Source: Burkholderiales bacterium
GTDB lineage: Bacteria; Pseudomonadota; Gammaproteobacteria; Burkholderiales; Burkholderiaceae_E
DNA length: 53,051 nt
Assembly: GCA_017307915.1 (NCBI GenBank)
Contig: JAFKGG010000370.1
Span: 1 to 53,051, forward strand
Reading direction: 5' to 3'
Shown: piece by piece, positions 1,034-17,723 of the stretch
How positions within the stretch are numbered: position 1 is the first letter of the stretch
Layout of the letters: every line of letters starts with the position of its first letter
Made by a program: the position numbers and the translations under genes
Notes under the pieces: model-generated
What the model was told of the DNA's origin: nothing
What the model saw: the letters and a program-made list of their open reading frames with translations, nothing else
Databases searched by the model: none

Positions 1034-1545
1034 AGGAACTGCTCGTCTATCAGCCGCGCAGCCTGGCGCCGGAGCGCGCCATCGCGCTGCGCTGCGAGAT
1101 CGAGGAATTCAATGCCGACTATTGCGCGGCGCTCGATGCCAACCAGGTCGAACTCTGGCCTGACTTCTTCACCGAAGATGCGATCTACCGGATCACCGGG
1201 CGCGAGAACGCCGAGCGCGATCTGGTCGTCGGGCTGGTGTATGCCGAAGGCCGCGACATGATGCACGACCGTGCCGTGGCGATCGCACGCACGCAGATGT
1301 TCGCGCCGCGCTACACGCTGCACGTGCTCGGGCAGACGCGCGTGATCAACGAATCCGAGCAGGGCATCCGCTCGCAGACCGCGTTCATGCTGTTGCAGAC
1401 GCTGGTCGAAGGGCCGACCACGCTGCATCTGGCCGGCACTTTCCATGATCGCTTCGTGCGCGTCGACGGCGCGCTGAAACTGGCCGAACGGCAGGTGATT
1501 CACGACACCAACGTACTGGCCAACGATCTCGTCTACCCGGTATGA
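1030..1545 (+). CDS. Ring-hydroxylating oxygenase beta (small) subunit
   Basis: A 171-residue protein of the SnoaL-like aromatic-ring-hydroxylating beta-subunit family. It begins with a helix (about residues 14-35, ERAIALRCEIEEFNADYC) followed by a D-x2-F-F-T-E-D-A-x-Y segment, the usual start of the cone-shaped beta fold. Beta subunits are structural in the alpha3beta3 oxygenase and carry no cofactor. The ATG overlaps the alpha-subunit stop by four bases, and its own stop overlaps a possible upstream ATG of the next gene, so the genes are translationally coupled. Its pairing with a NagG-like alpha subunit supports one oxygenase, probably the hydroxylase of a pyridine-carboxylate (picolinate-type) pathway. 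Confidence 0.85.
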   Translation: MKELLVYQPRSLAPERAIALRCEIEEFNADYCAALDANQVELWPDFFTEDAIYRITGRENAERDLVVGLVYAEGRDMMHDRAVAIARTQMFAPRYTLHVLGQTRVINESEQGIRSQTAFMLLQTLVEGPTTLHLAGTFHDRFVRVDGALKLAERQVIHDTNVLANDLVYPV

Positions 1546-1580
1546 CCGTGGTAGCCCATTTGCTTTCTGGAGACCACGCC

Positions 1581-2543
1581 GTGGCACGCATCCCGAAGAT
1601 CGCTTTCGAAGAGCATTACACGGCGCCCGGTTTCGCCGACTATTCGAAGGCATTCACCCAGCACATCTCGCCCGAGCTGGCCGCCTACCTGGGCCAGCGG
1701 CTGAACGATTTCGATGAGTTGCGCATCCAGGAAATGGATGCGGCCGGCGTCGAATACGTGATCCTGTCGCAGACCGGGCCCGGCGTACAGGCCGAGCCCG
1801 ACCTGCAGCAGGCACTTCGCCTGGCGGCGCAGAACAACGATTTCCTGGCCCAGCGCATCGCTGCGCATCCGACGCGGCTGGGCGGCTTCGCGCACCTGGC
1901 GATGCAGGATCCGGCCAAGGCCGCTGACGAACTGGAGCGCACCGTCAAGCAGCTCGGCTTCAAGGGTGCGCTGGTCAACGGCCACACGCGCGGCGTCTAT
2001 TACGACGACCGTGCCTATGACGTGTTCTGGGAACGGCTGCAAGCGCTCGACGTGCCGCTGTATCTGCACCCGATCGATCCGTTCACGGTGCCGCACGTGT
2101 ATGGCGGGCACCCCGAGATAGTCGGCGCCTGCTGGGGCTGGGGCGTCGAGACCGCGTCGCACGCGCTGCGGCTGCTGTTCGGCGGTGTGTTCGACCGCTT
2201 TCCGCGCGTGAAGGTGATCCTGGGCCACATGGGCGAGGGTCTGCCGTTTCAGCGCTGGCGCTTCGACAGCCGCTTCGCCGTCTATCCGCACGGCGTCACG
2301 CTGCAGCGCAAGCCCTCGGAATACATCGGCAGCAACATCGTCATCACCACCTCGGGTGTATGCTCGGGCGCGACGGTGGCCGGCGCGGTGGCCGAGATGG
2401 GGGCCGAGGCGGTACTGTTCTCGATCGACTATCCGTATGAATCGACGGCGCTGGCGGCCGAGTTCATCGAGTCGGCGCCGATCTCGGAAGAGGCGCGCCG
2501 GCTGGTGTGCTATGACAATGCCAAGCGGCTGTTCAAGCTATAG
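1581..2543 (+). CDS. Amidohydrolase-2 family decarboxylase (gamma-resorcylate/3,6-dihydroxypicolinate decarboxylase type)
   Basis: A TIM-barrel metal-dependent decarboxylase of about 320 residues. Visible metal or catalytic motifs are the N-terminal F-E-E-H-Y, Y-L-H-P-I-D-P-F, G-H-M-G-E-G-L-P and the late F-S-I-D-Y-P-Y-E aspartate, the same order as in gamma-resorcylate and 2,3-dihydroxybenzoate decarboxylases, which remove an aromatic carboxylate non-oxidatively. I chose the GTG at 1581 because GGAG at 1569-1572 sits eight bases before it and family members begin at this point; an in-frame ATG at 1542 overlapping the preceding stop is the alternative. In the picolinate pathway an enzyme of this family (PicC) decarboxylates 3,6-dihydroxypicolinate to 2,5-dihydroxypyridine, the substrate of the dioxygenase two genes downstream. 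The family is clear; the exact substrate is inferred from context. Confidence 0.85.
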   Translation: MARIPKIAFEEHYTAPGFADYSKAFTQHISPELAAYLGQRLNDFDELRIQEMDAAGVEYVILSQTGPGVQAEPDLQQALRLAAQNNDFLAQRIAAHPTRLGGFAHLAMQDPAKAADELERTVKQLGFKGALVNGHTRGVYYDDRAYDVFWERLQALDVPLYLHPIDPFTVPHVYGGHPEIVGACWGWGVETASHALRLLFGGVFDRFPRVKVILGHMGEGLPFQRWRFDSRFAVYPHGVTLQRKPSEYIGSNIVITTSGVCSGATVAGAVAEMGAEAVLFSIDYPYESTALAAEFIESAPISEEARRLVCYDNAKRLFKL

Positions 2544-2561: not shown

Positions 2562-3314
2562 ATGCAGAAGCTCTATCGCATCGGGCAGATCGTGCCCAGC
2601 TCGAACACCACGATGGAAACCGAGATCCCGGCGATGCTGCTGGCGCGCCAGCAGATCCGGCCCGAGCGCTTCACCTTCCACAGCAGCCGCATGCGGATGA
2701 AAAAGGTGGTGAAGGAAGAGCTGGCTGCGATGGACGCCGAATCCGACCGCTGCGCGATCGAGCTGTCGGATGCGCGCGTCGACGTGCTCGGCTATGCCTG
2801 CCTGGTGGCGATCATGGCGATGGGCCATGGCTATCACCGCGTTTCGCAACAGCGGCTGGGCCAGCGCACGCAGGAAAACGGCGCGCCGGCGCCGGTGATC
2901 ACCAGCGCCGGCGCGCTGGTCGATGCGCTGAAAGTGATCGGCGCCGAGCGCATCGTGGTGGTGGCGCCGTACATGCAGCCGCTGACCGATCTGGTGGTGG
3001 ATTACATCCGCAACGAAGGCCACACGGTGGTTGATTCGCGCGCGCTGCAGATTCCCGATAACCTGGAAGTGGGCCGCCACGATGCGCAGCGCCTACCCGG
3101 CATCGTCAGCCAGCTCGACTATGCCAATGCCGACGCGATCGTGCTGTCGGCCTGCGTTCAGATGCCGTCGCTGCCGGTGATCGCCAAGGTCGAGGCGATG
3201 ACGCGCAAGCCGGTGATCACCGCGGCGGTGGCCACCACCTACGCGATGCTCAAGGCGCTCGACCTGGAGCCGGTGGTGCCTGGCGCCGGCGCATTGTTGT
3301 CGGGCGCGTATTGA
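2562..3314 (+). CDS. nicE: Maleate cis-trans isomerase
   Basis: A 250-residue member of the Asp/Glu racemase superfamily that converts maleate to fumarate, the last step before the TCA cycle in 2,5-dihydroxypyridine degradation. The opening IGQIVPSSNTTMETEIPA and the segment FTFHSSRMRM are near-identical to known maleate isomerases (MaiA/NicE). The two catalytic cysteines are in the expected places: Cys80 in YACLVAIM and Cys198 in SACVQMPS. AGAGAAGG-like ribosome-binding sequence lies just before the ATG. The gene sits between the decarboxylase and the dihydroxypyridine dioxygenase on the same strand with short gaps. In a picolinate cluster it would carry the name picG; maiA is a further synonym. 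Confidence 0.95.
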   Translation: MQKLYRIGQIVPSSNTTMETEIPAMLLARQQIRPERFTFHSSRMRMKKVVKEELAAMDAESDRCAIELSDARVDVLGYACLVAIMAMGHGYHRVSQQRLGQRTQENGAPAPVITSAGALVDALKVIGAERIVVVAPYMQPLTDLVVDYIRNEGHTVVDSRALQIPDNLEVGRHDAQRLPGIVSQLDYANADAIVLSACVQMPSLPVIAKVEAMTRKPVITAAVATTYAMLKALDLEPVVPGAGALLSGAY

Positions 3315-3347
3315 CTCCGCCCTGAGCCCGCAACCTGGAGTTTCATC

Positions 3348-4394
3348 ATGCCTGTCGGCGACTATCAACTGATCCAGGCTTGGCAGAAAGTGCTCGAGCT
3401 GTCGCAGCTCAAGCCGGGTCAGGCGGTCACCATCCTGACCAGCGCGGCCACGCACCCGCAGAACCTGTCGGCCGCCACGGTGGCGGCGCAATCGCTGGGG
3501 GCCGTCGTCAGCCGGCTCGATCTGCCGCCGCTGAACGCCGACAAGGCGCTCAGCCGCGACCCGTTCGCCTACCTGGGCGAGACGCCGCTGACCGGCAACC
3601 GGCCGGCGCTGGCGGCGCTCAAATCCAGCGATCTGGTGATCGACCTGATGACCTTGCTGTTCTCGCCCGAGCAGCACGAGATCCTGGCCGGTGGCACCAA
3701 GATCCTGCTGGCGGTGGAGCCGCCCGAGGTGCTGGTACGCACCGTGCCCACGTTGGCCGATCGCGCGCGGGTGCGCGCCGCCTGCGAGCGGCTGGGCCGT
3801 GCCAAGACCATGACGGTCACTTCGCGCGCCGGCACCGAGATCAATTTCGCGCTCGGCGAGTTTCCGGTGGTCGGCGAATACGGCTTCGTCGATGAGCCCG
3901 GGCGCTGGGATCACTGGCCCAGCGGCTTTCTGTTCACCTTCGCCAACGAGGGCGGTTCCAACGGCCGCATCGTGATCGACCGCGGCGACATCGTGCTGCC
4001 GCAGAAAAACTACGTGGCCGAGCCGATCACGCTGACGGTGGAGAAGGGCTTCGTCACCCGTATCGAGGGCGGCATCGACGCCGAGTTGCTGCGCGAATAC
4101 ATGGCCTCGTTCAAAGACCCCGAGGCTTATGCGATCTCGCACATCGGCTGGGGCTTGCAACCGCGCACCTACTGGTCGACGCTGTCGCTGTATGATCGCG
4201 AGCAGACGATCGCGATGGACGCGCGCGCCTTCGAGGGCAACTTCCTGTTCTCGCTGGGCCCGAACAACGAGGCCGGCGGCGCGCGCACCACCGCCTGCCA
4301 TATCGACATACCGCTACGCGCCTGCACCGTGAGCCTGGACGGCGAAGCCGTGGTTCGCGATGGCCAGGTGCTCGATGGAGAGAACGCACGATGA
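3348..4394 (+). CDS. nicX: 2,5-dihydroxypyridine 5,6-dioxygenase (copy 1)
   Basis: A 348-residue mononuclear Fe(II) extradiol-type dioxygenase that opens 2,5-dihydroxypyridine to N-formylmaleamate. The three iron ligands known for NicX fall at the same positions here: His265 in SHIGWGLQPR, and His318 and Asp320 in CHIDIPLR. Other family blocks are GRWDHWPSGF and LGPNNEAGG. The ATG has GGAG a few bases upstream. The 3' end overlaps the maleamate amidohydrolase start by four bases. A paralogue of the same length and with the same ligands is encoded at 10047-11105 in the neighbouring nicotinate module, so this copy probably serves the picolinate branch (picD in that nomenclature). Confidence 0.95.
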   Translation: MPVGDYQLIQAWQKVLELSQLKPGQAVTILTSAATHPQNLSAATVAAQSLGAVVSRLDLPPLNADKALSRDPFAYLGETPLTGNRPALAALKSSDLVIDLMTLLFSPEQHEILAGGTKILLAVEPPEVLVRTVPTLADRARVRAACERLGRAKTMTVTSRAGTEINFALGEFPVVGEYGFVDEPGRWDHWPSGFLFTFANEGGSNGRIVIDRGDIVLPQKNYVAEPITLTVEKGFVTRIEGGIDAELLREYMASFKDPEAYAISHIGWGLQPRTYWSTLSLYDREQTIAMDARAFEGNFLFSLGPNNEAGGARTTACHIDIPLRACTVSLDGEAVVRDGQVLDGENAR

Positions 4395-6055: not shown

Positions 6056-6092
6056 CGGCCGAAATGCTCTCACGCGGAAATAGGAGGCTTCC

Positions 6093-7226
6093 TTGGCCGG
6101 AACACCACGCATTGCAATCATCGGCGCAGGTCTTGGCGGCTGCACCGCCGCCGCCCTCTTGCATCAGGCAGGTTACGAAGTGCGCCTTTACGAGCAGGCG
6201 CCTGCCTTCTCGCGGCTTGGTGCCGGCATCCATCTCGGGCCCAACCTGATGCAGGTCATGCGGCGCGTTGGCATAGAAGAGCAGCTGGTGAAGGTGGGCA
6301 ACGAGCCTGACTTCTGGTACAGCCGCGACGGCCGCACCGGCGAAATCACGGGCAAGGTGCCTTTGAGTGATTCGCGAGTGCGCTATGGCGCGCCCTATCT
6401 CACGATTCACCGGGGCGACTTCGCGCAGTTGCTGGCCGACGCCGTGCCGGCCAGCATATTGAAGTACGGCAAGAAGGTGGATAGCGTCGAAGACACCGGG
6501 GACGACGTCCGCTTGGTGTTTTCAGATGGCACGACCGAGACCGCAGACATCGTCGTGGGCGCGGACGGCGTGAACTCGGTGGTCCGGGAACGTCTGCTGG
6601 GGCCGGAGCTGCCCCAGCATACCGGCTATGCCGCGCACCGCGCAGTGTTCCGTACGCCGATGCAGTCGCTCGACCTGCCATTCGACATGTGCACCAAGTG
6701 GTGGGCCGACGACCGCCACATGATGGTTTACTACGTTACGCGCAAGAAGGATGAGATCTATTTCGTCACCGGCGTGCCCGGCGGCGAAGACTGGAATCTC
6801 GATGTGCGTTACACGCCCAGCACGAAGCAGGAGTTGCGCGAGACCTTCGCCGGCTGGCACCCCACCGTGCAGGCGTTGATCGAAGAAGCCCAGGAGATCA
6901 CCTTCTGGCCGTTGCTGGAGCGTGATCCGCTGCCGCTGTGGAGCCGCGGTCGCATGGTGCTGTTGGGGGACGCGTGCCACCCCATGAAGCCCCACATGGG
7001 CCAGGGCGCCGCGATGGCGATCGAAGATGCCGGCATGCTGGTGCGCTGCCTGCGCGAACTCGGGCCGCATCGCTACGAGCAGGCTTTCAAGCTGTATGAA
7101 ACCAATCGCAGCGGGCGCGCGGCGAAGGTGCAGAAGGTTTCTCACGAGAACACGTGGCTCAGGCGGGATGAAGATCCGTCATGGTGCTTCGGTTATGATG
7201 TGTTCTCCGTGCCTTTGATGCAGTAA
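6093..7226 (+). CDS. nicC: 6-hydroxynicotinate 3-monooxygenase
   Basis: A 377-residue FAD-dependent group A aromatic hydroxylase that converts 6-hydroxynicotinate to 2,5-dihydroxypyridine with loss of CO2, using NADH and O2. The FAD motifs are G-A-G-L-G-G near residue 11, the DG motif V-G-A-D-G around residue 155-159 and G-D-A-C-H-P near residue 292. Residues known to matter in NicC are conserved: His47 in AGIHLGP, and His209 and Tyr213 in DRHMMVYY. The start is TTG at 6093, supported by AGGAGG at 6082-6087 five bases upstream. The gene has its own promoter and operator and is followed after seven bases by a MarR regulator, so the two are probably co-transcribed. Identity to NicC of pseudomonads looks high throughout. 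Confidence 0.93.
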   Translation: MAGTPRIAIIGAGLGGCTAAALLHQAGYEVRLYEQAPAFSRLGAGIHLGPNLMQVMRRVGIEEQLVKVGNEPDFWYSRDGRTGEITGKVPLSDSRVRYGAPYLTIHRGDFAQLLADAVPASILKYGKKVDSVEDTGDDVRLVFSDGTTETADIVVGADGVNSVVRERLLGPELPQHTGYAAHRAVFRTPMQSLDLPFDMCTKWWADDRHMMVYYVTRKKDEIYFVTGVPGGEDWNLDVRYTPSTKQELRETFAGWHPTVQALIEEAQEITFWPLLERDPLPLWSRGRMVLLGDACHPMKPHMGQGAAMAIEDAGMLVRCLRELGPHRYEQAFKLYETNRSGRAAKVQKVSHENTWLRRDEDPSWCFGYDVFSVPLMQ

Positions 7227-7233
7227 CAAGCCT

Positions 7234-7797
7234 ATGGCGCGTTCGCGCGAACGGGGGGCTACCGCCCCCAAGTACGATTTCTCCGAGCAGGTGGGACATC
7301 TGCTGCGCCGCGCCTACCAGCGCCACGTCGCGATATTTCAACGGGTCGTACCGGATTCGCGTCTCACCGGCGCGCAATTCTGCGTGCTGTGCGCGCTGCG
7401 CGACCATGGGCCGGTTTCGATGAGCGAGATCTGCCGCTTCACGGCCATCGATCAGGCTACGGTGCGCGGCATCCTGGAGCGGTTGAAGGCACGCGATCTG
7501 GTCGCAACCTCAGCCGATGCAATCGATCGGCGCAAGGTCATCGTTGCGCTCAAGCCGGCGGGTGATGCGCTGTTGGACGACATCATGCCGGCCGCGCAGC
7601 ACATATCCGAGCTTACGACAGCCGGGTTGAACCCGGCCGAGCAGTTGGCGCTGCTGTTTCTGCTCCGGAAGTTGAGCGACGACGACAGCGAGGCGGCGGC
7701 CGAGCCGGCATCCGATGAAGTGCAGATCGGCGATGAATCGATCAGGCAGACACGGCGCTCCGATCGAGCAGCACGGAGCGCACGCGCTCGGGCGTGA
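7234..7797 (+). CDS. MarR family transcriptional regulator of the nicotinate module
   Basis: A 187-residue MarR-type protein. The winged helix spans about residues 55-105, with MSEICRFTAIDQATVRGILE as the recognition segment and D-A-I-D-R-R-K-V at the wing. An acidic then arginine-rich tail (about residues 150-187) is not typical of the family. The last 56 bases overlap the 3' end of the convergent molybdopterin-subunit gene. It sits seven bases after nicC, so it should be controlled by the nicC operator and may repress itself. It is the best candidate to read the GTGTACAC-type sites at nicC, nicA and the TRAP operon; this is inference from position. Confidence 0.88.
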   Translation: MARSRERGATAPKYDFSEQVGHLLRRAYQRHVAIFQRVVPDSRLTGAQFCVLCALRDHGPVSMSEICRFTAIDQATVRGILERLKARDLVATSADAIDRRKVIVALKPAGDALLDDIMPAAQHISELTTAGLNPAEQLALLFLLRKLSDDDSEAAAEPASDEVQIGDESIRQTRRSDRAARSARARA

Positions 7798-10072
7798 ACG
7801 GCGGACGCGGGAAGCGCTTTCCGGTCGCATCGAACAGCGCGTTTGCAATCGCGGCCGGCGCGGGCACCGACGTCGATTCGCCGGAGCCGAGCGGCGGCTC
7901 GTCGGGTCGCTCCATCAATACCAGTTCGATCTGCGGCAATTCGGGGAAGGTGAGCAGCGGGTAGGCGCCCCACTCGCGTGCGGCAGCGCCGTTGGCATCG
8001 AAGCGCACCTCTTCCTTCAGCACGCGGCTGAGCATCTGCACGATGTTGCCGTGCACTTGATGGCGCACGCCATCCGGGTTCACCATCAGCCCTGCGTCTT
8101 GCCCCACCGTTACGCGCTTGACGACGATCCGGCCGGTGGCGCAGTGGCACGCCAGCTCCACCGCCCAGGCGGCAAAGGCTGCCCCAAACCCGGGAAAGTT
8201 GCTGTGCACGTAACGTGCATAGCTCAGGCCGCATCCACGCACCCATCCCTCGTCATCGGCCCGGCCACCGGAGCCCGTTGCGCGAGCGTGCCAGCTGAAG
8301 CGCTCTGCGACGGCTTGCAAGAGTTCCCGGGCGCGCGCATCGGGCAGATGCGCGAGGCGGTAGTCCAGCGGGTCGGCGCCGGCTTGCACTGCCAGCTCGT
8401 CGATGAATGAGTCGTGCGCGAAGGAGTTCGGCAAGGCCGAGACACCGCGCAGCCAACTGGCTCGGACGATCGGCGCTACGTCATCGGTGGCGATGCGCAG
8501 ATGCGGATAGTGGTACGGCGGCACGGACGTCCGGCAACCCAGTTCCATCGGCCGCGGCGTATTGGGCATCGTGCCCGTCAACAACAATGCGAGCAGCGGC
8601 GCATCATTGGTAGGGTAACGGCTGAGCAGCTCGTATGACGACGGCGCGCCTTGCGCGTCCATGCTGCCGATGACATCGACGAGTTGCGCGGACCCCTTGG
8701 GTTCCCAGAGATGTTCCTGCTGACGCGACAGTTGTACGCGCACCGGCCGGCCGACGGCGCGCGCCAGCAAGGCCGCATCGCCGCCCACGTCGTCGGCGCA
8801 ATTGCGGCCATAGCAGCCGGAAGCCTCCATGCGAATGACGTCGATGTCGCCTTCGTCCATGCTCATCAGGCGCGACAGATCGGTGCGCAGCAGGTGCGGA
8901 TTCTGCGTGCCCGACCATACCTGCAGCCGGCCGCGATGAATGCGTGCGACCGAGCAGGACGGGCCGATGGAGCCATGCAGCTGATACGGCCACAGGTAGG
9001 TACGCCGCAGGACGTGCGCTGCCGCGCTGCGCGCTGCGTCGACGTCGCCGCGAGTCAGCAGTGGCCGCGGCTTGCCGGGCGCATTGCGCAGGCACGCCTC
9101 GAGATCGTCGAGGTTGGGGGTGCCGCGCAGCTCTTGCCAGCTTACCTTCAGCATGCGGGCCGCGAGCTCTGCGTTTTCCTCGCGCTCGGCGACGACACCG
9201 ACGAAATCGCCGATCACCACCACATCGATCAGGCCCGGCACATCGGCGACGGACGCGCGGTCGACGTGCAACAGGCTGGTGCCGACGAAGTCGCCGCAGT
9301 CTATGCCCGCATAAGGGGGGCGAACCACCCGGCCATGCAGCATGCCGGGCAGGCGCACGTCATGAACGAAGCTCAGTTGGCCGGTTGCTTTCGCGGGAAT
9401 GTCGACGCGCGCTTGCGAGCGCCCGACGATGCGGTATTGGCTCGCGGGTTTGGTCGGTGTTTCGATGTCCAGCGTCAGGCGCACCTGCTCCGGCCCGATC
9501 AGCTCGCCGTAGCGCACCATCGTTGCGGCGGCCGCGCCGGACGCATCGATGATCTCGAACGCGCCGTCTTGCGCGCGCAACTGACGTTCTCCGCCGAGTT
9601 TGTCGGCAAGCATGGCCTGCGCTCTGGCGTGTAGCCATGCGCGTGCCTGTGCGGCCGCGGCGCGTAACGGCACCGCCGTGATCTGCAGCGTTGCACTGGC
9701 GACGGTCGGCCCCTGGTTCGGCGCCGCACACGTGTGGCCGAGCACCATCGTCACGGCTTCGAACGGAACGTCGAGTTCTTCCGCGACGACCTGCGCGAGC
9801 GCGGTGCGAATGCCGGTGCCCAGATCGACATGGCCGTTGAATGCCATGATCCGGCCATCGGCGAGCACGGCGACGAAGATGTCCGGTTCCGGTTGCCGGT
9901 AGTGCGAAGTGTTGCCGAGCTTGCCGGGCGAAGCGATGGGCAGGACCGGCGGATCACGAACGACCAAGAGCGCCCCGGGCTCCCGCAACAGCGCTTCGCG
10001 CGTGGGCAGGCGCGGCGCTTGCAGCCGTTTCGCCGGCCCTCGCGAATCAGCCGTGCAGGGTTCCGGCGGCAT
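7742..10072 (-). CDS. Xanthine-dehydrogenase-family molybdopterin-binding subunit (nicotinate hydroxylase catalytic subunit)
   Basis: A 776-residue molybdenum hydroxylase large subunit without signal peptide. The order is: N-terminal Moco segment with VDLGTGIRTALAQVVAEEL (about residues 80-100), a hammerhead domain (about 205-310), the E-A-S-G-C-Y-G-R-N-C block standing where relatives have GGFGRR, and near the C-terminus L-G-S-G-E-S-T-S-V-P-A-P, whose glutamate (about residue 732) is the conserved catalytic base. ATG at 10072 is preferred over TTG at 10081; it overlaps the end of the upstream dioxygenase gene by 26 bases, so the two are coupled. In Pseudomonas NicB the molybdopterin and cytochrome parts are one chain. 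Here the intact Moco subunit is separate, and a decayed Moco-like domain is fused to the cytochrome encoded at 11756-14629. Hydroxylation of nicotinate at C6 is the inferred reaction. Confidence 0.87.
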   Translation of the reverse strand: MPPEPCTADSRGPAKRLQAPRLPTREALLREPGALLVVRDPPVLPIASPGKLGNTSHYRQPEPDIFVAVLADGRIMAFNGHVDLGTGIRTALAQVVAEELDVPFEAVTMVLGHTCAAPNQGPTVASATLQITAVPLRAAAAQARAWLHARAQAMLADKLGGERQLRAQDGAFEIIDASGAAAATMVRYGELIGPEQVRLTLDIETPTKPASQYRIVGRSQARVDIPAKATGQLSFVHDVRLPGMLHGRVVRPPYAGIDCGDFVGTSLLHVDRASVADVPGLIDVVVIGDFVGVVAEREENAELAARMLKVSWQELRGTPNLDDLEACLRNAPGKPRPLLTRGDVDAARSAAAHVLRRTYLWPYQLHGSIGPSCSVARIHRGRLQVWSGTQNPHLLRTDLSRLMSMDEGDIDVIRMEASGCYGRNCADDVGGDAALLARAVGRPVRVQLSRQQEHLWEPKGSAQLVDVIGSMDAQGAPSSYELLSRYPTNDAPLLALLLTGTMPNTPRPMELGCRTSVPPYHYPHLRIATDDVAPIVRASWLRGVSALPNSFAHDSFIDELAVQAGADPLDYRLAHLPDARARELLQAVAERFSWHARATGSGGRADDEGWVRGCGLSYARYVHSNFPGFGAAFAAWAVELACHCATGRIVVKRVTVGQDAGLMVNPDGVRHQVHGNIVQMLSRVLKEEVRFDANGAAAREWGAYPLLTFPELPQIELVLMERPDEPPLGSGESTSVPAPAAIANALFDATGKRFPRPPFTPERVRSVLLDRSAVSA

Positions 10073-11105
10073 CGAGACCAACCACTTTTCCGCGCGTCAC
10101 CACGTCGCGGCCGTCCAGGCGGATCGTGCAATTGCGGATCGGGATGTCGATGTGGCAGGCGGTGGTGCGCGAACCGCCAGCCTCGTTGTTGGGCCCGAGC
10201 GAGCACAGGAAGTTGCCCATGAAGGCGCGCGCCTCCTGGCCCGTCGTGGCCTCACGATCGTATAGAGACATGCCCGACCAGCGGGCTCGTGGCTGCAGTC
10301 CCCAGCCGATGTGCGACATGGCATACGCTTCGGGGTCGTCGAACGATGCCATGTAGTCTTCCAGCAGCTTGGCGTCGATGCCGCCTTCGATCCTGGTGCA
10401 GTAGCCATTGGTGATCGTGAGGGCCACCGGCGCGCTCACGTACGACTTCTGCGGCAGCAGGATGTCGCCGACGTCGAGGACGATGGTGCCGTTCGTCTGA
10501 GCCTCGTTGGGCCAGGTCAGGGCGAAGCCGCTCGGCCAGTGATCCCAGCGCCCCGGCTGGTCCACGAAACCGTATTCCTGAATGGCCGGATACTGGCCCA
10601 GCGGGCAGCGGACGTCGGTACCCGCCTCGGAGGTGATGTGCATTTCCTTGGCCTCGGCGATCTTGCGCGCCGCGGCCTGTACCCGCTCGCGGTCTTGCGC
10701 GTGCGGTACGAGCCGTACCAGCACTTCGGGCGGCTCAACGGCCAGCAGGATGCGTGTACCGCTCGCGAGAATCTCGGCCTGCTCGGGCGAAAACAGCAAG
10801 GTCATCAGGTCGATCACCATGCTGCTGGCTTTCAGCGCCGCCAGCGCAGCAGGGTTGCCGGTGAGTGCCGTCTCCCCTAGATAGGCGAACGGGTCTCGGC
10901 TCAATGAACGCGATCCGTTCATCGACGGCAGATCGAGCCGATTGACCACGGCGCCCAACGTGGTGGCGGCAATGGTGGCGCAGTGCAGCGTCTGGGGATG
11001 CGTCTGGGATCCGGTGAGGATGGTGAGCACTTCACCCCGTTTGACGTTCGAGAGCTGCAAGACCTGGGTCCAGGCCGCGATGAATTCGGTGTCATTGATC
11101 GCCAT
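10047..11105 (-). CDS. nicX: 2,5-dihydroxypyridine 5,6-dioxygenase (copy 2)
   Basis: A 352-residue paralogue of the protein at 3348-4394. Iron ligands His265 (SHIGWGLQPR), His318 and Asp320 (CHIDIPIR) are conserved at identical numbering, as are GRWDHWPSGF and LGPNNEAGG. It is the first gene of a two-gene minus-strand operon with the molybdopterin subunit, and divergent from the [2Fe-2S] subunit gene at 11263. Having one NicX per module suggests that the picolinate and nicotinate branches are induced separately but merge at N-formylmaleamate. The 156-base divergent promoter region carries a clear operator nearer the other gene and a weaker TAGGTGTATA half-site near 11148. Confidence 0.93.
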   Translation of the reverse strand: MAINDTEFIAAWTQVLQLSNVKRGEVLTILTGSQTHPQTLHCATIAATTLGAVVNRLDLPSMNGSRSLSRDPFAYLGETALTGNPAALAALKASSMVIDLMTLLFSPEQAEILASGTRILLAVEPPEVLVRLVPHAQDRERVQAAARKIAEAKEMHITSEAGTDVRCPLGQYPAIQEYGFVDQPGRWDHWPSGFALTWPNEAQTNGTIVLDVGDILLPQKSYVSAPVALTITNGYCTRIEGGIDAKLLEDYMASFDDPEAYAMSHIGWGLQPRARWSGMSLYDREATTGQEARAFMGNFLCSLGPNNEAGGSRTTACHIDIPIRNCTIRLDGRDVVTRGKVVGLDAAGTLHG

Positions 11106-11222
11106 GTCGGATCCGGTTTCGAAGCGCCAAACGCGAAGCCGCAGATTAGGTGTATAAATAGAATATTGTCAACTTTTCATTCCTGATTTTCATAGTAAAT
11201 CAGCGAATGCGGTTGCCCGGAA

Positions 11223-11244
11223 TATATGGTGTGTACACTGTTTA
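11223..11244. promoter_or_regulatory. Operator-like palindrome upstream of nicA
   Basis: The site reads TATATGGTGTGTACACTGTT with the perfect eight-base palindrome GTGTACAC at 11231-11238, 25 bases before the nicA start. It aligns with 14701-14724 and with the minus strand of 6036-6055. Being in the divergent region, it could act on both nicA and the nicX copy at 11105. Confidence 0.6.
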
Positions 11245-11262
11245 TTTGCCATTGCCTGCACC

Positions 11263-11781
11263 ATGACGCCCCCTGCCGTTCCACCTATGCCGCTTGCCTC
11301 GCTGCAGGTCAATGGGGAGCGCTGTAGCGTCCCTCCGGATGTTTCGCCCGCTACGCCGCTGTTGTACGTTCTAAGAAACGACCTTGGCTTGAACAGCCCC
11401 AAGTACGGCTGTGGGCTCGGTCAATGCGGCGCGTGCACGGTGCTGGTCGATGATCGCGCCTGCCGTTCGTGCATCACTCCGGTATCGCAGGTGCAGGGCC
11501 GTGCAGTGACCACGCTGGAGGGGCTGGCCGCCGATGGCCTGGACCCGGTGCAGCAGGCTTTCGTCGAGAAGCAGGCGGCCCAATGCGGCTATTGCACCAG
11601 CGGCTTCATCATGACCACCAAGGCCTTGCTGCGCCAATATCCCAATCCTACTGACGCTCAGATCGCGCAGGCACTGCGCTACAACCTTTGCCGGTGCGGG
11701 GCGCACGTCGAAATTCTTCAGGCCGTACGCCGCGCGGCCGAACTCATGGCACACGATGATTCCGACGCGACTGGCCGCTGA
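11263..11781 (+). CDS. nicA: (2Fe-2S)-binding subunit of nicotinate hydroxylase
   Basis: A 172-residue small subunit of a molybdenum hydroxylase with two [2Fe-2S] clusters. The plant-ferredoxin-type cluster uses the cysteines of GCGLGQCGACTVLVDDRAC (about residues 49-67), and the second uses CGYC (about 108-111) and the later C-R-C-G. It passes electrons from the molybdenum site to the next acceptor. The N-terminus has about 13 extra residues; an in-frame ATG at 11287 is possible. Its 3' end overlaps the tri-haem protein gene by 26 bases. There is no FAD subunit nearby, as expected when a cytochrome c rather than FAD takes the electrons. Confidence 0.92.
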   Translation: MTPPAVPPMPLASLQVNGERCSVPPDVSPATPLLYVLRNDLGLNSPKYGCGLGQCGACTVLVDDRACRSCITPVSQVQGRAVTTLEGLAADGLDPVQQAFVEKQAAQCGYCTSGFIMTTKALLRQYPNPTDAQIAQALRYNLCRCGAHVEILQAVRRAAELMAHDDSDATGR

Positions 11782-14629
11782 TCCGCTTCCGGATGAAGCG
11801 GCCCTGCTGTTTGGCGCCGTCGCGCGGCCCGTCGAGGTCGCCTGGGAGGTGGCCGGTAACCCGGCGCCGCGGCTGCTGCAGGTCGATGCCGGCAGCGCAG
11901 AGCGGCTGCCCGGCGTGGTGCGAGTCGTGGCGCGCGAGTCCTTCGTCGGCGTGGTGGCTCGCACGCCGGTGGCCGCACGGTATGCGGCCGGCGCCCTGAA
12001 GCTGCAATGGGCGCCGTTGCCGCGCGGCAATGCCACGGTCGACCCGTCTCCCGTCGTGGGTGCGCAGGGCGCTGCATCGGTGCTCTATCGTTGGCCCCTC
12101 AGACCGAAGGCAAGCGCGGCGCGCGTGGTGGCGCAATTGCGCCGTTCCCCCGAAGGTGCCCGCCTGCATGTCTGGGCACCGCTGGAGGATTTCGGCGATC
12201 TGCCTCGCGCGCTGGGCGCCCTGCTGGGTCTCGACCCGGCGGCAGTGGTCATGATGGGCACCGGGGGCGATCGGGTAGCCGATTACCGGGTGGCTTGCGC
12301 GGCGGCGGATGCGGCCCTGCTGGCGCAGGCGGTGGACAGGCCCGTTGCAGTGGACTGCCATCCTGAGGATGCCTTCCCCGGTGCGTATTGGCACACGACT
12401 GCGGTGAGCAGCCTGCCGGCGCACGGTGACACGGCCGAACGGCTGGCCGTGTCGGCACCGCTCGGATTGCCGCAGGCGCCGCCGCTCGCGCTGGTGCTGA
12501 CCGGCACGCCGTACTCGCATCGCCTTGCGGCCTCCTCGCCGCCGGCACTGCCCTACGGGGCGCAGGTGCACGCGCAAGCCGCCCCCGGTGCCGTTCCGCT
12601 GGGCCATGCCGATCATGCCTTGCATGAAGCCTTGGTGTTCGCCCTGGAATCGCAGCTTGATGAAAACGCACGAGCTGCGGGCCAGGATCCGGTTCAAGCG
12701 CGGCTGCAGCAGCTCGATGAACGCGGCGCCGCCCTGGTGCGCCGGGTCGCTGAGCGCGCCGGTTGGAGCCAGCCGCGCCCGCGTCTACGGGAAGACGGAC
12801 TGGCAGCGGGGCGTGGATTCGCCTATGCCCAGCTTTTTGCCGACTCGGACGGCGCTCAAGCGGTGCCGGGCTGGTCGGCCTGGGCGGTCGACGTCGTCGT
12901 CGACGAACGCACGGGCGACGTTCGCGTCGAACGCGTGGCGATGGGCCAGGACAGCGGCATGAGCGGCGCCGACGGCGCAGACCTGCCACGCCTGCAAGCC
13001 GAGGGCGAGGCCTATGCCCGCAGGCTGCTTGGCGGGAAAGCCTTCGACGATTGGCCGGCGGGGCCGATGGGCCAGGCCGTTGCGACTGACGGCGGCCTCG
13101 CCTTGCCGCAGGCGCTACCCGTGCCTGAGGCCAGGGCTGCGTTGCAGCCGGTGCTGCAGGTTCATCCGGCCGCGATGCTGCCCGCGGCGGCTGCCATCGC
13201 CAATGCGATCTTCGATGCCACCGGCGTTCGCATGCGCGAGCCGCCCTTCACGGGTGAAGCGCTGCTTGGCGCCCTGCGTGAGCGCGGCGCCGCTGCCGAC
13301 CGGCAGCGCAGTCGGCAGCGGACTCGCTCTGCGTTCGCTGCGCTGGGGGCCATGGTGGTGGGCGCCTCTGCGGCGATTTTCGCCGGTGGCCTCGGCACGC
13401 GCGCGATCGCTCCCACGGTGCCGCCGGCGGCAAACCTCTACTCGGTAGAAACGATCGAGCGCGGCCGCCTCGTCGCCGCGGCCGGCGATTGCGTCGCCTG
13501 CCATACGGCGCCGGGCGGGGTTCCGAACGCGGGCGGGCTCGCACTGCCTACGCCGTTCGGCACGATCTACTCCACCAACATCACCCCCGACGCGGAGACC
13601 GGCATCGGAGCGTGGAGCTACGCAGCCTTCGAGCGCGCAATGCGCCACGGCATCAGCCGCGATGGGCATCGGCTTTATCCTGCGTTCCCATACACCGCCT
13701 TCGCTCGCTTGAGCGACGGTGACATGCAGGCGCTGTACGCCTATCTGATGGCGCAAGCGCCGGTGGCGCAACGCGCGCCCGAGACCAGGCTGGACTTCCC
13801 GTTCAGTGCCCGGCCGCTGCTGGCGCTGTGGAATGCCGCTTTCCACGACGCGTCGAGTTTCCGTCCCGATCCCGCCCGTTCGGCGCAATGGAACCGCGGT
13901 GCCTATCTCGTGAATGGCATCGGCCATTGCGGTGCTTGCCACACGCCGCGCAATGCACTGGGTGCGGAGCGGGGCGCAACGGCATTCCTGAGCGGTGGCG
14001 AAGCCGAGGGCTGGCGCGCACCGGCTTTGGGCAAGCATTCCGGCGCGCCCATTCCGTGGACCGAGGAGGCGCTCTACGAATACTTGCGTTTTGGCAGTTC
14101 TGCCGAGCACGGGCCGGCAGGGGGGCCGATGCGGGCGGTGGTGCAAGGGCTGTCGCAGCTCGCGGAAAGCGATGTGCGCGCCATGGCGCATTACCTGGCG
14201 CACCTGCCCGACGGCGCCGCTGCGCCCGAGCAGAACCAGGTCGAAGCTGCTGCGCGCCGGCTGCAGCAACGCAGCGACGCTTTGTCTCCCGTCTTGAACG
14301 GGCCCGGCGCGCGCCTGTATGAAGGCGCATGCGCCGTGTGCCACGAGCCCGGTCTGGGCGGACTCGTTCCCGAGGCCAAGCTGCCCTTGGCGTTCAACAC
14401 CAACCTGCACGACGCACGGCCGGACAACCTGATCCAGGTTCTGCTGCACGGCATCGAGCCGGCGCAAGGCACGCTGTATGGCTCCATGCCGGCTTATGCC
14501 GACACTTTCGATGATCGACAGATCGCCGATCTCGTGCGCTATCTGCGGGCGCGTTTCGCTCCCGGCCAACCGCCGTGGCCGAAGCTGGAGAGCGATGTCG
14601 CGCGGGTGCGAGCGCAGCAGGCTCACTGA
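11756..14629 (+). CDS. Degenerate molybdopterin-like domain fused to membrane-anchored tri-haem cytochrome c
   Basis: A 957-residue protein. Residues 1-510 resemble the C-terminal two thirds of a molybdopterin subunit: hammerhead-like start, V-M-M-G-T-G-G-D-R block, and PAAAAIANAIFDATGVRMRE. It lacks the N-terminal Moco segment, and the catalytic Gly-Glu is replaced (L-Q-V-H-P-A, about residue 468). One hydrophobic helix follows (about 520-548), then three cytochrome c domains with haem motifs CVACH (579), CGACH (725) and CAVCH (859). The cytochromes should be periplasmic and feed electrons to the respiratory chain. The layout equals NicB of Pseudomonas with a non-catalytic front part. The catalytic role is probably taken by the subunit encoded at 7742-10072. 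The gene overlaps nicA by 26 bases. Confidence 0.85.
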   Translation: MIPTRLAADPLPDEAALLFGAVARPVEVAWEVAGNPAPRLLQVDAGSAERLPGVVRVVARESFVGVVARTPVAARYAAGALKLQWAPLPRGNATVDPSPVVGAQGAASVLYRWPLRPKASAARVVAQLRRSPEGARLHVWAPLEDFGDLPRALGALLGLDPAAVVMMGTGGDRVADYRVACAAADAALLAQAVDRPVAVDCHPEDAFPGAYWHTTAVSSLPAHGDTAERLAVSAPLGLPQAPPLALVLTGTPYSHRLAASSPPALPYGAQVHAQAAPGAVPLGHADHALHEALVFALESQLDENARAAGQDPVQARLQQLDERGAALVRRVAERAGWSQPRPRLREDGLAAGRGFAYAQLFADSDGAQAVPGWSAWAVDVVVDERTGDVRVERVAMGQDSGMSGADGADLPRLQAEGEAYARRLLGGKAFDDWPAGPMGQAVATDGGLALPQALPVPEARAALQPVLQVHPAAMLPAAAAIANAIFDATGVRMREPPFTGEALLGALRERGAAADRQRSRQRTRSAFAALGAMVVGASAAIFAGGLGTRAIAPTVPPAANLYSVETIERGRLVAAAGDCVACHTAPGGVPNAGGLALPTPFGTIYSTNITPDAETGIGAWSYAAFERAMRHGISRDGHRLYPAFPYTAFARLSDGDMQALYAYLMAQAPVAQRAPETRLDFPFSARPLLALWNAAFHDASSFRPDPARSAQWNRGAYLVNGIGHCGACHTPRNALGAERGATAFLSGGEAEGWRAPALGKHSGAPIPWTEEALYEYLRFGSSAEHGPAGGPMRAVVQGLSQLAESDVRAMAHYLAHLPDGAAAPEQNQVEAAARRLQQRSDALSPVLNGPGARLYEGACAVCHEPGLGGLVPEAKLPLAFNTNLHDARPDNLIQVLLHGIEPAQGTLYGSMPAYADTFDDRQIADLVRYLRARFAPGQPPWPKLESDVARVRAQQAH

Positions 14630-14724: not shown

Positions 14725-14890
14725 GCTGCATCTCGTCGCCAAGATGTGCGTCGTATGTGGCCGCAAAAAATAAGGCAAGACGATGAATTCACAACTTTCT
14801 TGCTCATAAGAATTACGACGCATACACTACAGTTTGAAATAAAGCTTTCAAATCAATCAAACGTCATTGGTCATTGAGAAAGGGTCATCC

Positions 14891-15880
14891 ATGAATAGAA
14901 TGTTTCTTGCCTTGCGCTCAATGGTGGTCGCGCTGGCGGTATCGGCGCTGGCAGTCCCGGCGTTCGCACAGGAGTTCCGCCTGCTCTCGAGTTGGGACAA
15001 GAACTACGCGTACAACCCGCACATGCTCGACCCGTTCATCAAGGGCGTGGAAACGGGTTCGAACGGCCGCATCAAGTTCGTCGTCAACGGTCCCGAGACG
15101 GTGCCGCCGTTCGAGCAGCTCGAGCCGGTGAGCTCCGGTGTATTCCAGTTCCTCTTCACGCATGGTTCCTACCACTTCGGCACCACGCCCGCGATGACGG
15201 TGGTCGAGGCGTTGCAGGGCGACCTGGCCGCGATACGCAAGTCGGGCCTGCTCGACATGCTGGACAAGCACTACCAGAAGTACCAGTTGAAACTGGTCAT
15301 GCTGGCCATCTCGCCGGAAGGCGCCTACAACATCATCCTGCGCAATCCGGTCAACGCGCAGGGCGACCTGGCCGGCCGCAAGATCCGCGGCATCTCGACC
15401 TACGGCGGCGTGGTGAAGATGCTGAACGGCGCGATGACCGTGCTGCCGGTCGGCGACGTCTACACCGGCCTGGAAAAAGGCTTGATCGACGGCACTGCAT
15501 GGCCGATCATCGGCGCGCTCGACTATCGCTGGAATGAAGTCGCCAAGCATCTGCTGCGGCCCGGTTTCGGCATCAACTATGAGCCGCTGTTCATGAACCT
15601 GGCCGCCTGGAACAAGCTGAGCAAGCAAGACCAGCAGTTGATGCTGAACGTTGCCCGCAAGGTGGAAGACGACTGGCACAAGAACGCCCAGGCGGTGTGG
15701 AAGAAAGAAGAAGCGCTGCTGCTGTCCAAGGGCATGAGCATCACCGAGATGGGCAGCGCCCAGAAACAGAAGCTCAGCGCGGCATGGTCCAGCGGCCTGC
15801 TCGAAACCGGTGCGGCCAAGGATCCGAAGTTCACCGCTGAACTGCGCAAGTTCGCCACCGAGAAGGGGCTGCTGAAGTGA
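14891..15880 (+). CDS. TRAP transporter substrate-binding protein (DctP family)
   Basis: A 329-residue periplasmic binding protein. A signal peptide spans about residues 1-27 and ends in A-L-A-V-P-A-F-A-Q. The mature protein has the family segments GRKIRGISTY and VGDVYTGLEKGLIDGTAWP, the latter around the conserved substrate-binding region. ATG at 14891 is chosen because AGAAAGGG precedes it and it directly opens the signal peptide. It is the first gene of a complete P-Q-M TRAP operon with overlapping stops and starts. An operator-like site shared with nicC and nicA lies upstream, so the ligand may be nicotinate or a related pyridine carboxylate; TRAP ligands are usually carboxylates. Confidence 0.9.
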   Translation: MNRMFLALRSMVVALAVSALAVPAFAQEFRLLSSWDKNYAYNPHMLDPFIKGVETGSNGRIKFVVNGPETVPPFEQLEPVSSGVFQFLFTHGSYHFGTTPAMTVVEALQGDLAAIRKSGLLDMLDKHYQKYQLKLVMLAISPEGAYNIILRNPVNAQGDLAGRKIRGISTYGGVVKMLNGAMTVLPVGDVYTGLEKGLIDGTAWPIIGALDYRWNEVAKHLLRPGFGINYEPLFMNLAAWNKLSKQDQQLMLNVARKVEDDWHKNAQAVWKKEEALLLSKGMSITEMGSAQKQKLSAAWSSGLLETGAAKDPKFTAELRKFATEKGLLK

Positions 15881-16407
15881 TTCTTGCCGCGCCGGTCACG
15901 CCGTGGCGCCGGGTTCTTCAGGCGCATGACGCGGTGACGGCGGCAGGGTTCCAGCTCGCCGCGTTGTGCCTGGCGGTGATCGTCTGCACCTACGTGATCG
16001 AGGTGACGCTGCGTTACCTCCTGAACTCGCCCACCTCGTGGGCGAGTTCGGCGGTTTCCTATCTGCTGTGCATCATCATCTTCGTGATGCTGCCCGAGCT
16101 GACGCGGCGCCGTTTCCACATCTTCATCAGCGTGCTGCCGGATGCGCTGTCCGAGCGCAACGCTACCTTGCTGATGAGATCGGGCTATCTGGCCGCCTTC
16201 CTGGCCTGCATGCTGGCGGCGTGGTTCTGCGCCGACGCCACCTATACGCAATACGTGGGCGACATCGAAACCCTGAACGAATGGCGCGTTCCGAAGTGGA
16301 CGGTGTCGATCTTCATTCCCTACGGCCTGGGTTCGAGCGGCCTGTATTTTCTGCGTAACGCATTGTCGAGTGAGCCGTATCGGGCTGTGGAGAGCGGTGC
16401 CTCATGA
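15877..16407 (+). CDS. TRAP transporter small permease (DctQ family)
   Basis: A 176-residue membrane protein with four hydrophobic segments (roughly residues 25-48, 58-76, 100-122 and 140-162), the usual topology of the TRAP small subunit. It starts with GTG at 15877 overlapping the binding-protein stop and ends in an ATGA overlap with the large permease gene. Its role is to support the large permease and dock the binding protein. Confidence 0.9.
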   Translation: MILAAPVTPWRRVLQAHDAVTAAGFQLAALCLAVIVCTYVIEVTLRYLLNSPTSWASSAVSYLLCIIIFVMLPELTRRRFHIFISVLPDALSERNATLLMRSGYLAAFLACMLAAWFCADATYTQYVGDIETLNEWRVPKWTVSIFIPYGLGSSGLYFLRNALSSEPYRAVESGAS

Positions 16408-17723
16408 CCTGGTGGATCGTTCTGACGGGCGGCGTCGGCATGCTGCTCGCCTTGTTGTTTCTCGGCCTGCCCATCTTCGTGTCGTTTCTGCTGCTGAACG
16501 TGGCGGGCCTGCTATACCTGATCGGCCCGCACGGGTTCGGCATGTTTGCCAACAGCATCTTCACCACTGCGAACATTGCCGAGCTTGCCGCGGTGCCGCT
16601 GTTCATCCTGATGGGCGAGCTGCTGTTCCGTTCCGGCGCGATGGAGGTGGTGCTGGATTCGCTGGATCGGCTGGTGGGCCGAATCCGCGGCCGGCAGTAC
16701 GTGCTGTGCATCGTGCTGTCGGCGATCCTGGGGGCTTTGTCGGGCGCGGCAATGGCGGTGGCGGGCCTGCTCGGGCGTTCGCTGTTTCCGACCATGCGCA
16801 AGCGCGGCTACGATCTTCACATGTCCGCCGGCACGCTGCTGGGGGGCGCCAGCCTCGATCCGATCATTCCGCCCAGCGTGCTGGCGATCATCATCGCGAC
16901 GCTGGCCAAGGTCTCCACCGGGCAGATGCTGATCGCCGGCATTCTGCCGGGCCTGATGCTGACGGGCATGTTCCTGATCTACGTCTTCATCCGGCTCCGG
17001 CTCAATCCCGCCCTGGCGCCCGATCTTTCCGCCGATCTGACGGATGAGTCGACGCGCGGCAGCGCGCTGGTGGCGTTCCTGAAGCTGCTGCCGGTGAGCA
17101 TCATCTTCTTTCTGGTCGTCGGCTTGATCATGCTCGGCGTGGCAACGCCGACGGAATCGGCCGCCAGCGGCGTCGTCGGGGCGCTGGTTCTGGCGCGCTA
17201 TTACGGCGGGCTCAGCCCCCGCATGATCAAGGAGTGCTTGTACTCGGCGGCCACGGTCACCGGCATGCTGCTGATCGTCATGTGCTGCGCCGCGATGTTC
17301 AGCCAGTTGCTGACCTTTTCCGGCGCGGTTCGCCAGCTCGGTGAAACCGTGCTGGCACTGAGCCTGCCGCCGACGGCGATGCTGTTCGTGATGCTGGCGG
17401 TGCCGTTCGTGTTGTTCCTGTTCCTGGACGCCACGTCGATCCTGATGGTGCTGATTCCGATCTACCTGCCGATTCTGGCCGTATACGGTTTCGACCCGAT
17501 CTGGTTCTGGACGCTGATCCTGGTGGTGGCCACGGTCGGGGCGCTGAGCCCGCCATTCGGCTATACCCTGTTCGCGTTCAAGAGCGCGGTGCCCGATATG
17601 CCGATGCGGGACATCTTCAAGGCGGCGTGGCCCTACGTATGGATCATCACCTTCGGTATCTTGCTGATGGCGATGTTCCCGCGCATCGTCACCTTCCTGC
17701 CGGAGCTGATGGCCGGGAAGTAG
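16404..17723 (+). CDS. TRAP transporter large permease (DctM family)
   Basis: A 439-residue polytopic permease, the sodium-coupled transport subunit of the TRAP system. It shows many hydrophobic helices and family blocks such as L-F-I-L-M-G-E-L-L near residue 70, GGASLDPIIPPS near residue 150 and LFLDATSILMVLIPIYLPI near residue 335. The start codon overlaps the small-permease stop. With the two upstream genes it forms a complete uptake system positioned directly after the nicotinate hydroxylase genes. Confidence 0.93.
   Translation: MTWWIVLTGGVGMLLALLFLGLPIFVSFLLLNVAGLLYLIGPHGFGMFANSIFTTANIAELAAVPLFILMGELLFRSGAMEVVLDSLDRLVGRIRGRQYVLCIVLSAILGALSGAAMAVAGLLGRSLFPTMRKRGYDLHMSAGTLLGGASLDPIIPPSVLAIIIATLAKVSTGQMLIAGILPGLMLTGMFLIYVFIRLRLNPALAPDLSADLTDESTRGSALVAFLKLLPVSIIFFLVVGLIMLGVATPTESAASGVVGALVLARYYGGLSPRMIKECLYSAATVTGMLLIVMCCAAMFSQLLTFSGAVRQLGETVLALSLPPTAMLFVMLAVPFVLFLFLDATSILMVLIPIYLPILAVYGFDPIWFWTLILVVATVGALSPPFGYTLFAFKSAVPDMPMRDIFKAAWPYVWIITFGILLMAMFPRIVTFLPELMAGK

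Follow-up and report, generated by a model that had tools for sequence, protein, structure and literature searches.

Why should a bacterial hydroxylase carry two molybdopterin-like chains, and which of the two does the chemistry? The question is raised by a stretch of 53,051 nucleotides from a Burkholderiales bacterium (assembly GCA_017307915.1, contig JAFKGG010000370.1), referred to here as the window, which holds a nic-type (nicotinate degradation) cluster; gene names are taken from the gene content common to nic-type loci and from the Delftia listing in PMC4572682. The enzyme concerned is a predicted vitamin B3-degrading hydroxylase of three proteins, namely the small subunit NicA, a stand-alone molybdopterin chain, NicB1, of 776 residues, and a protein of 957 residues, NicB2, in which an eroded molybdopterin-like domain (the pseudo-domain) is joined by a hydrophobic segment to a tri-haem cytochrome c (Table 1). 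That the substrate would be nicotinate, hydroxylated at C6, we infer from the adjoining genes, which have homologues in other nic-type loci. The answer that we regard as probable, judging from the sequences, is that NicB1 catalyses and that the dead half of NicB2 has been kept as a dock to the membrane cytochrome; catalysis by NicB1 is itself well supported, and the docking role is plausible.

The original prediction had taken the divergently encoded chain at 7742–10072 to be a complete molybdopterin subunit, and so it proves: the open reading frame (ORF) comprises 779 residues and ends at 7742, the 776-residue form beginning with the ATG at 10072, and both MoCoBD_1 and MoCoBD_2 lie above the Pfam cut-off, the best MoCoBD_2 stretch being near the N-terminus (residues 64–175) and MoCoBD_1 behind it (340–573). 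All six conserved segments that we take to bind the molybdenum cofactor (Moco) are present (DLGTG, NQGPT, GCYGRN, LRGVSALPN, GQD...HQVHGN and GxGES), and Glu732 stands in the column of what is presumably the catalytic Glu of the family. In a search of the Protein Data Bank (PDB), NicB1 matched chain C of 8gy3 almost end to end (residues 60–768 to 53–766; expect value, E, 5e-39). A six-frame pattern search found the DLGTG-type segment just once in the window, in this chain. The features by which a catalytic subunit of the xanthine oxidase family is recognised, i.e. the Moco segments together with the catalytic Glu, are thus found in the 776-residue chain and not in the 957-residue one, so that only NicB1 of the two looks able to be catalytic, as had been predicted.

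For the window NicB2, Pfam reports cytochrome c domains alone. By BLASTP its residues 1–517 are 31% identical to NicB1 over 565 aligned positions (E 3e-32), while profile–profile comparison of the pseudo-domain with NicB1 gives a probability of 100 and E 1.7e-73 over 494 columns, spanning NicB1 residues ~242–773; as the match starts only at ~242, the first ~240 residues of NicB1 are without counterpart in NicB2. Used as a profile against PDB sequences, the pseudo-domain found molybdopterin subunits, the best being PaoC (5g5h, E 3.9e-31), with chain C of 8gy3 matched over profile positions 45–526. At the catalytic site, GSGES of NicB1 (with Glu732) aligns with QVHPA in the window NicB2. The description originally given of the 957-residue protein, as carrying a shortened molybdopterin-like domain that has lost the N-terminal Moco segment and the catalytic Gly-Glu, is therefore borne out. 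By codon position the G+C (guanine plus cytosine) content of the pseudo-domain is broadly like that of its neighbours, with a higher value at the first position (0.83 versus 0.63–0.73).

The same loss is seen throughout the family. Relatives were gathered from named genomes, seven NicB2 pseudo-domains serving as queries; the scan found 103, of which 80 were kept, and used a peptide pattern, [LS]PAAAA[IV][AG]N, that favours NicB2. An alignment of 158 rows (71 NicB1, 77 NicB2 and 10 single-chain NicB, seven rows of 400 residues or fewer having been dropped beforehand) extended the comparison to single-chain NicB, in which a molybdopterin domain, a hydrophobic segment and a tri-haem cytochrome make up one chain; Pseudomonas putida KT2440 has such a NicB with its NicA, and same-genus relatives of the window genome have one too. 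HVDLGTG, NQGPT, GCYGRN, LRGVSALPN, the DAG/DTG-to-HGN stretch and GxGES are near-invariant in NicB1 and single-chain NicB, and not one of the six is intact in any of the 77 NicB2 rows, being either deleted or replaced: HVDLGTG is wholly gapped in 76 of the 77 rows and NQGPT in all of them, and in the remaining four the median identity is 0 to 0.11. Of the GQD ahead of the DAG/DTG stretch, the G is kept in 96% of NicB2 rows and the D in 77%. The Glu column holds E in 70/71 NicB1 rows (the sole row without it, L093, is cut by a contig end), in 10/10 single-chain NicB rows and in 2/77 NicB2 rows. Pfam gives weak MoCoBD matches within the NicB2 family, in 29 and 25 of 70 members, the window's not among them. 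NicB2 was defined in the count of gene pairs by the absence of DLGTG, yet none of the 76 ORFs joining a Moco-type domain to a cytochrome in the 80 named loci has a DLGTG-type segment; three CxxCH motifs are present in 69 of these ORFs, four in 4 and fewer in 3. (The four loci without a joined ORF are L093, L106 and L136, which are end-cut, and L092, which has two overlapping frames.) A full set of Moco-binding residues was thus looked for in NicB2 and is absent, and its N-terminal half is predicted to be a catalytically dead, cofactor-free copy of a molybdopterin subunit.

A pair of one eroded and one complete chain occurs in 71 of the 80 named loci, in many genera, and the nine loci without NicB1 are each at the end of a contig or on one of ~10 kb or less. 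In 70 of the 71, nicB1 is divergent from nicA-nicB2. The nicA gene is adjacent to nicB2 in 73/80, the other seven being six end-cut loci and L129 (missed by the script); in the window the two adjoin with a 26-base overlap, and in 54 of 74 scored loci the overlap is of four bases (ATGA or GTGA), the start codon having been chosen by the script as that nearest the nicA stop. A single nicB broken by assembly or frame error, considered as an explanation, is ruled out by this recurrence together with the presence of just one DLGTG-type segment in the window. A sample of 399 genomes from the order, with the best two candidates per genome scored so that counts are lower bounds, gave 15 matches that were at least 50% identical to NicB1 (the next best being at most 42%), and these are of three kinds: 7 stand-alone chains with an eroded NicB2, the window included, 6 single chains, and 2 of a type with a signal for twin-arginine translocation (Tat) and a plain cytochrome. 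This Tat-type (G164 and Delftia second copies) resembles the window in having NicA, a molybdopterin chain 51–53% identical to NicB1 and, encoded separately from it, a tri-haem cytochrome; it differs in the Tat-like signal on the molybdopterin chain and in a cytochrome that lacks the pseudo-domain. Beyond the order, the same class holds five further NicB1/NicB2 pairs. At E ≤ 1e-20 the window NicB1 matches nothing but NicB1 and NicB2 in Alcaligenes faecalis AU14 and in one Bordetella genome.

In three trees the NicB2 pseudo-domains form one side of a branch (support by SH-aLRT, the Shimodaira–Hasegawa-like approximate likelihood ratio test, 99, 98 and 100), and NicB1 sequences come together (29/30, 24/25 and 11/11 rows, L122 being the exception); NicB1, NicB2 and single-chain NicB stand apart from the Tat-type copies (100). 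The window chains lie inside a 29-row NicB1 clade and a 31-row NicB2 clade (both 99), which lends no support to an independent origin in the window genome, considered in view of the single-chain NicB of same-genus relatives. The placement of NicB2 differs from tree to tree: in one it lies with NicB1 among single-chain NicB, and in two it is apart from NicB1 and a single-chain row. The approximately unbiased test rejects neither (p-AU 0.757 for a NicB1+NicB2 clade and 0.744 for a NicB1+single-chain clade); the searches were quick ones and many NicB2 branches are very long. In a tree of the cytochromes, NicB2, single-chain NicB and locus L065 fall in one group (89), away from ten other tri-haem cytochromes, but the two NicB2 rows of Caballeronia type stand apart from the other 25. 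At the origin a fused nicB was probably duplicated, after which the two copies lost opposite parts; this is the simplest reading and not one that the trees settle.

We infer, as for substrate and origin, a docking role, a cytoplasmic location and an electron route along the following lines: NicB1 would carry the molybdenum cofactor and hydroxylate nicotinate, NicA would relay the electrons through its two [2Fe-2S] clusters, and the membrane-anchored three-haem cytochrome of NicB2 would take them up, the pseudo-domain holding the presumably cytoplasmic NicA–NicB1 pair to that cytochrome and being kept for that reason. The probable anchor of NicB2 has its more positive flank on the N side, from which the N-terminus is predicted to lie inside; the same charge difference is found in 77/78 NicB2 proteins, and 2/76 NicB2 N-termini reach a Kyte–Doolittle (KD) hydropathy of 1.6, the highest being that of L120, cut by a contig end. 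Haems of the c type are attached on the outside of the membrane. In the window NicB1 there is no clear signal peptide, and the RR motif of its Tat-like relatives is absent, although N-terminal hydropathy separates the groups poorly (maximum 1.32 in 72 NicB1 rows versus 1.31–1.82 in four Tat-like relatives). The N-termini of NicB1 and of single-chain NicB ahead of DLGTG (e.g. TRADFLAADGVLVVTREP) look like a worn-down Tat signal, one from which the second arginine and the hydrophobic core would have gone.

In the 399-genome sample the association between export and pseudo-domain is clean, with an eroded NicB2 beside 7/7 stand-alone Tat-less NicB1 and a domain-free cytochrome beside 2/2 Tat-type copies, but just two lineages make up the Tat side. 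Should NicA and NicB1 lie in the cytoplasm and the haems in the periplasm, the electrons would have to traverse the membrane, and a more specific version of the docking reading can be put forward tentatively, as a possibility well short of an even chance: the pseudo-domain would be a dedicated cytoplasmic half that pairs with NicB1–NicA and passes electrons through or along the anchor to the haems, having been kept because the catalytic chain is no longer Tat-exported in this line, so that the enzyme has to operate across the membrane, which the Tat-exported type does not. The question that is sharpened for the whole NicB group is by what route electrons pass from a chain without evident export signal to c-type haems.

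The pseudo-domain is under purifying selection. Pairwise ratios of non-synonymous to synonymous substitution (dN/dS; Nei–Gojobori, with pairs usable at 0.1 < dS < 1.2) have a median of 0.315 for the pseudo-domain (133/154 pairs, range 0.085–0.514), 0.163 for NicB1 (145/154 pairs) and 0.151 for the cytochrome (140/149 pairs). Within NicB2, 66 columns are at least 85% conserved, 52 of them with the same majority residue as in NicB1, and 22 are invariant in 70 sequences, some of these having been picked by the scan pattern; the best-kept stretch is the tail LPAAAAIANA..DATGVR, likewise partly selected by that pattern. Taken together, the ratios and the kept columns suggest a domain that is neither active nor freely drifting, and constraint maintained across a wide clade fits a structural role. 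On this view the molybdenum hydroxylase would have retained a pseudoenzyme subunit for a long time, and its single-chain and Tat-exported relatives serve as natural controls.

A number of observations weigh against a docking role for a dead domain, and several of them would suit a passive remnant, slowly decaying and of use only in letting NicB2 fold and keeping its anchor in frame. The dN/dS of the pseudo-domain is about twice that of either NicB1 or the cytochrome, NicB2 branches are much longer in all three trees, and, of the 235 columns in which NicB1 is at least 97% conserved, NicB2 keeps 30 and mostly has gaps in 67, much as a passive remnant would. The pseudo-domain and cytochrome of Paenalcaligenes niemegkensis (L092, 9824–12782) occupy two overlapping open frames, which, unless due to a sequencing error, argues against a fused dock. 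Such a remnant is nonetheless rather doubtful as an explanation, given that the pair persists in numerous genera as well as in five class-level loci outside the order, and given the absence of any usable pair above a dN/dS of 0.514 and the invariant columns; moreover, the domain-free cytochromes beside Tat-type copies imply that the cytochrome as such does not need the domain. Other unfavourable points concern the active site: rows L144 and L145 of NicB2 have E in the Glu column, without GxGE, and GxGE occurs elsewhere in 11/76 joined ORFs, two of which (L116 and L142) have it among the final 110 residues of the domain, in a variable stretch that precedes the site. Of the five class-level NicB2, L168 has a GxGE somewhere before the haems and outside the tail stretch inspected. 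Further NicB1-like copies in Delftia and Cupriavidus genomes mean that NicB1 is not everywhere the sole catalytic candidate. The hydrophobic segment reaches a mean KD of at least 1.6 in just 28/78 NicB2 proteins, a loose Tat pattern is found in 3/72 NicB1 N-termini (that of L072 being ambiguous), and, if the membrane has to be crossed, no carrier is visible in the sequences, a puzzle that single-chain NicB would share. Finally, in L122 (Achromobacter sp. HZ34, 6072–11587) nicA, nicB2 and nicB1 lie on one strand, an exception to the divergent layout. As a separate matter, L122 has a very long NicB2 branch and a NicB1 that falls outside the NicB1 group, perhaps reflecting a different substrate.

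Dead paralogous subunits can serve as regulatory or maturation factors, and the pseudo-domain might, for example, hold apo-NicB1 until Moco insertion rather than form a permanent dock; the divergence of nicB1 from nicA-nicB2 in nearly all two-gene loci would suit this, but fusion to the cytochrome acceptor fits a permanent place in the complex better, evidence specific to such a role was neither looked for nor met with, and we consider it improbable. Yet more remote is the notion that both chains bear molybdenum. It has the support of the discussion in PMC6403243, which, citing Zhang 2018, credits Zhang et al. with proof that the A. faecalis JQ135 enzyme has three components and that two of its subunits contain molybdenum; the notion is difficult to reconcile with the deletion or replacement of every Moco segment in NicB2 and with the weak MoCoBD matches. 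On the sequence evidence we argue for one molybdenum subunit, not two as that discussion has it, with the dead half of NicB2 most probably serving as a dock.

The prediction had presented the arrangement as a departure from single-chain NicB. This stands in so far as the two jobs done there by one chain are split over two in the window, with the dead copy kept on the cytochrome chain; as a claim to novelty it was overstated, given how common the pair is and given that the tripartite arrangement is already in print. The enzyme is called tripartite (NicA, NicB1, NicB2) for Burkholderia gladioli and Bordetella in PMC10269826, and the Delftia Cs1-4 listing in PMC4572682 runs nicB2, nicA, nicC, nicE, nicD, nicX, nicF, nicB1, which fits the gene order of locus L057 (nicD was not among the reference genes used). 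These systems and that of A. faecalis JQ135 have the same three genes as the window together with nic pathway genes, but the window differs in gene order and in having a second nicX beside nicB1. What is new, within the literature as searched, is the reading of the second copy as dead, which clarifies a widespread enzyme in that one of its two molybdopterin-like chains looks able to be catalytic. No statement of the loss of the NicB2 active site was found in the accessible portions of the open-licence literature, and print beyond it may hold one; the corresponding portions of PMC10293998, PMC6837509 and PMC10331938 have nothing on NicB2 domains. The review PMC10331938 also describes a three-gene nicotinate dehydrogenase, NdhS/NdhL/NdhM (21, 82 and 46 kDa), which, compared by that description only, is like the window in having three chains, with an 82-kDa molybdenum chain of about the size of NicB1, while the chain of 46 kDa falls short of the size of NicB2 and is described there as a flavoprotein. 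Alcaligenes aquatilis QD168 is reported in PMC6460240 to grow on nicotinate.

Among known structures, the best PDB matches of both window chains belong to one complex, 8gy3, with chain C (the large subunit) resembling NicB1 and chain A (the cytochrome c subunit) resembling the NicB2 cytochrome. The cytochrome chain of 8gy3 has 444 residues and is aligned from residue 7, so there is no room in it for a pseudo-molybdopterin domain. We take 8gy3 to be a Gluconobacter aldehyde dehydrogenase.

Table 1 Features of the hydroxylase locus in the window.
Feature	Position	Strand	Description
nicB1	7742..10072	-	Complete stand-alone molybdopterin subunit, 776 residues
Glu732 codon	7877..7879	-	Conserved Glu column (counts in text)
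Second NicX-like gene	10050..11105	-	Overlaps nicB1 start; 66% identity to 3348–4391
nicA	11263..11781	+	Small subunit; Fer2 and Fer2_2 domains (two [2Fe-2S]) by Pfam
nicB2	11756..14629	+	Pseudo-molybdopterin domain, hydrophobic segment and three-haem cytochrome c, 957 residues
Eroded molybdopterin-like domain	11798..13297	+	NicB2 residues ~15–514; homologous to NicB1 ~242–773; Moco segments lost
Hydrophobic segment AFAALGAMVVGASAAIFAG	13331..13387	+	NicB2 residues 526–544; N side more positive; probable membrane anchor, N-terminus predicted inside
Tri-haem cytochrome c domain	13412..14626	+	Three CxxCH; match to 8gy3 chain A, E 1.3e-99

The second NicX-like gene sits between the divergent nicB1 and nicA, directly before nicB1, and with the gene at 3348–4394 (+) it gives the cluster two NicX-like ring-cleavage genes. 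No nicD lies between nicE and nicX (window 2562–4394), unlike locus L055, which has a NicD-like gene there; the best match to the latter in the genome of the window (75% identity) is on another contig, C138, near a third NicX-like gene and NicE-like and FMO-type genes. Directly upstream of nicE (window 2–2543) are genes for ring-hydroxylating oxygenase alpha and beta subunits together with one for an Amidohydro_2 protein, a set that may represent another aromatic route, and directly downstream of nicB2 (14867–17723) are TRAP transporter genes (DctP, DctQ, DctM), a candidate importer.

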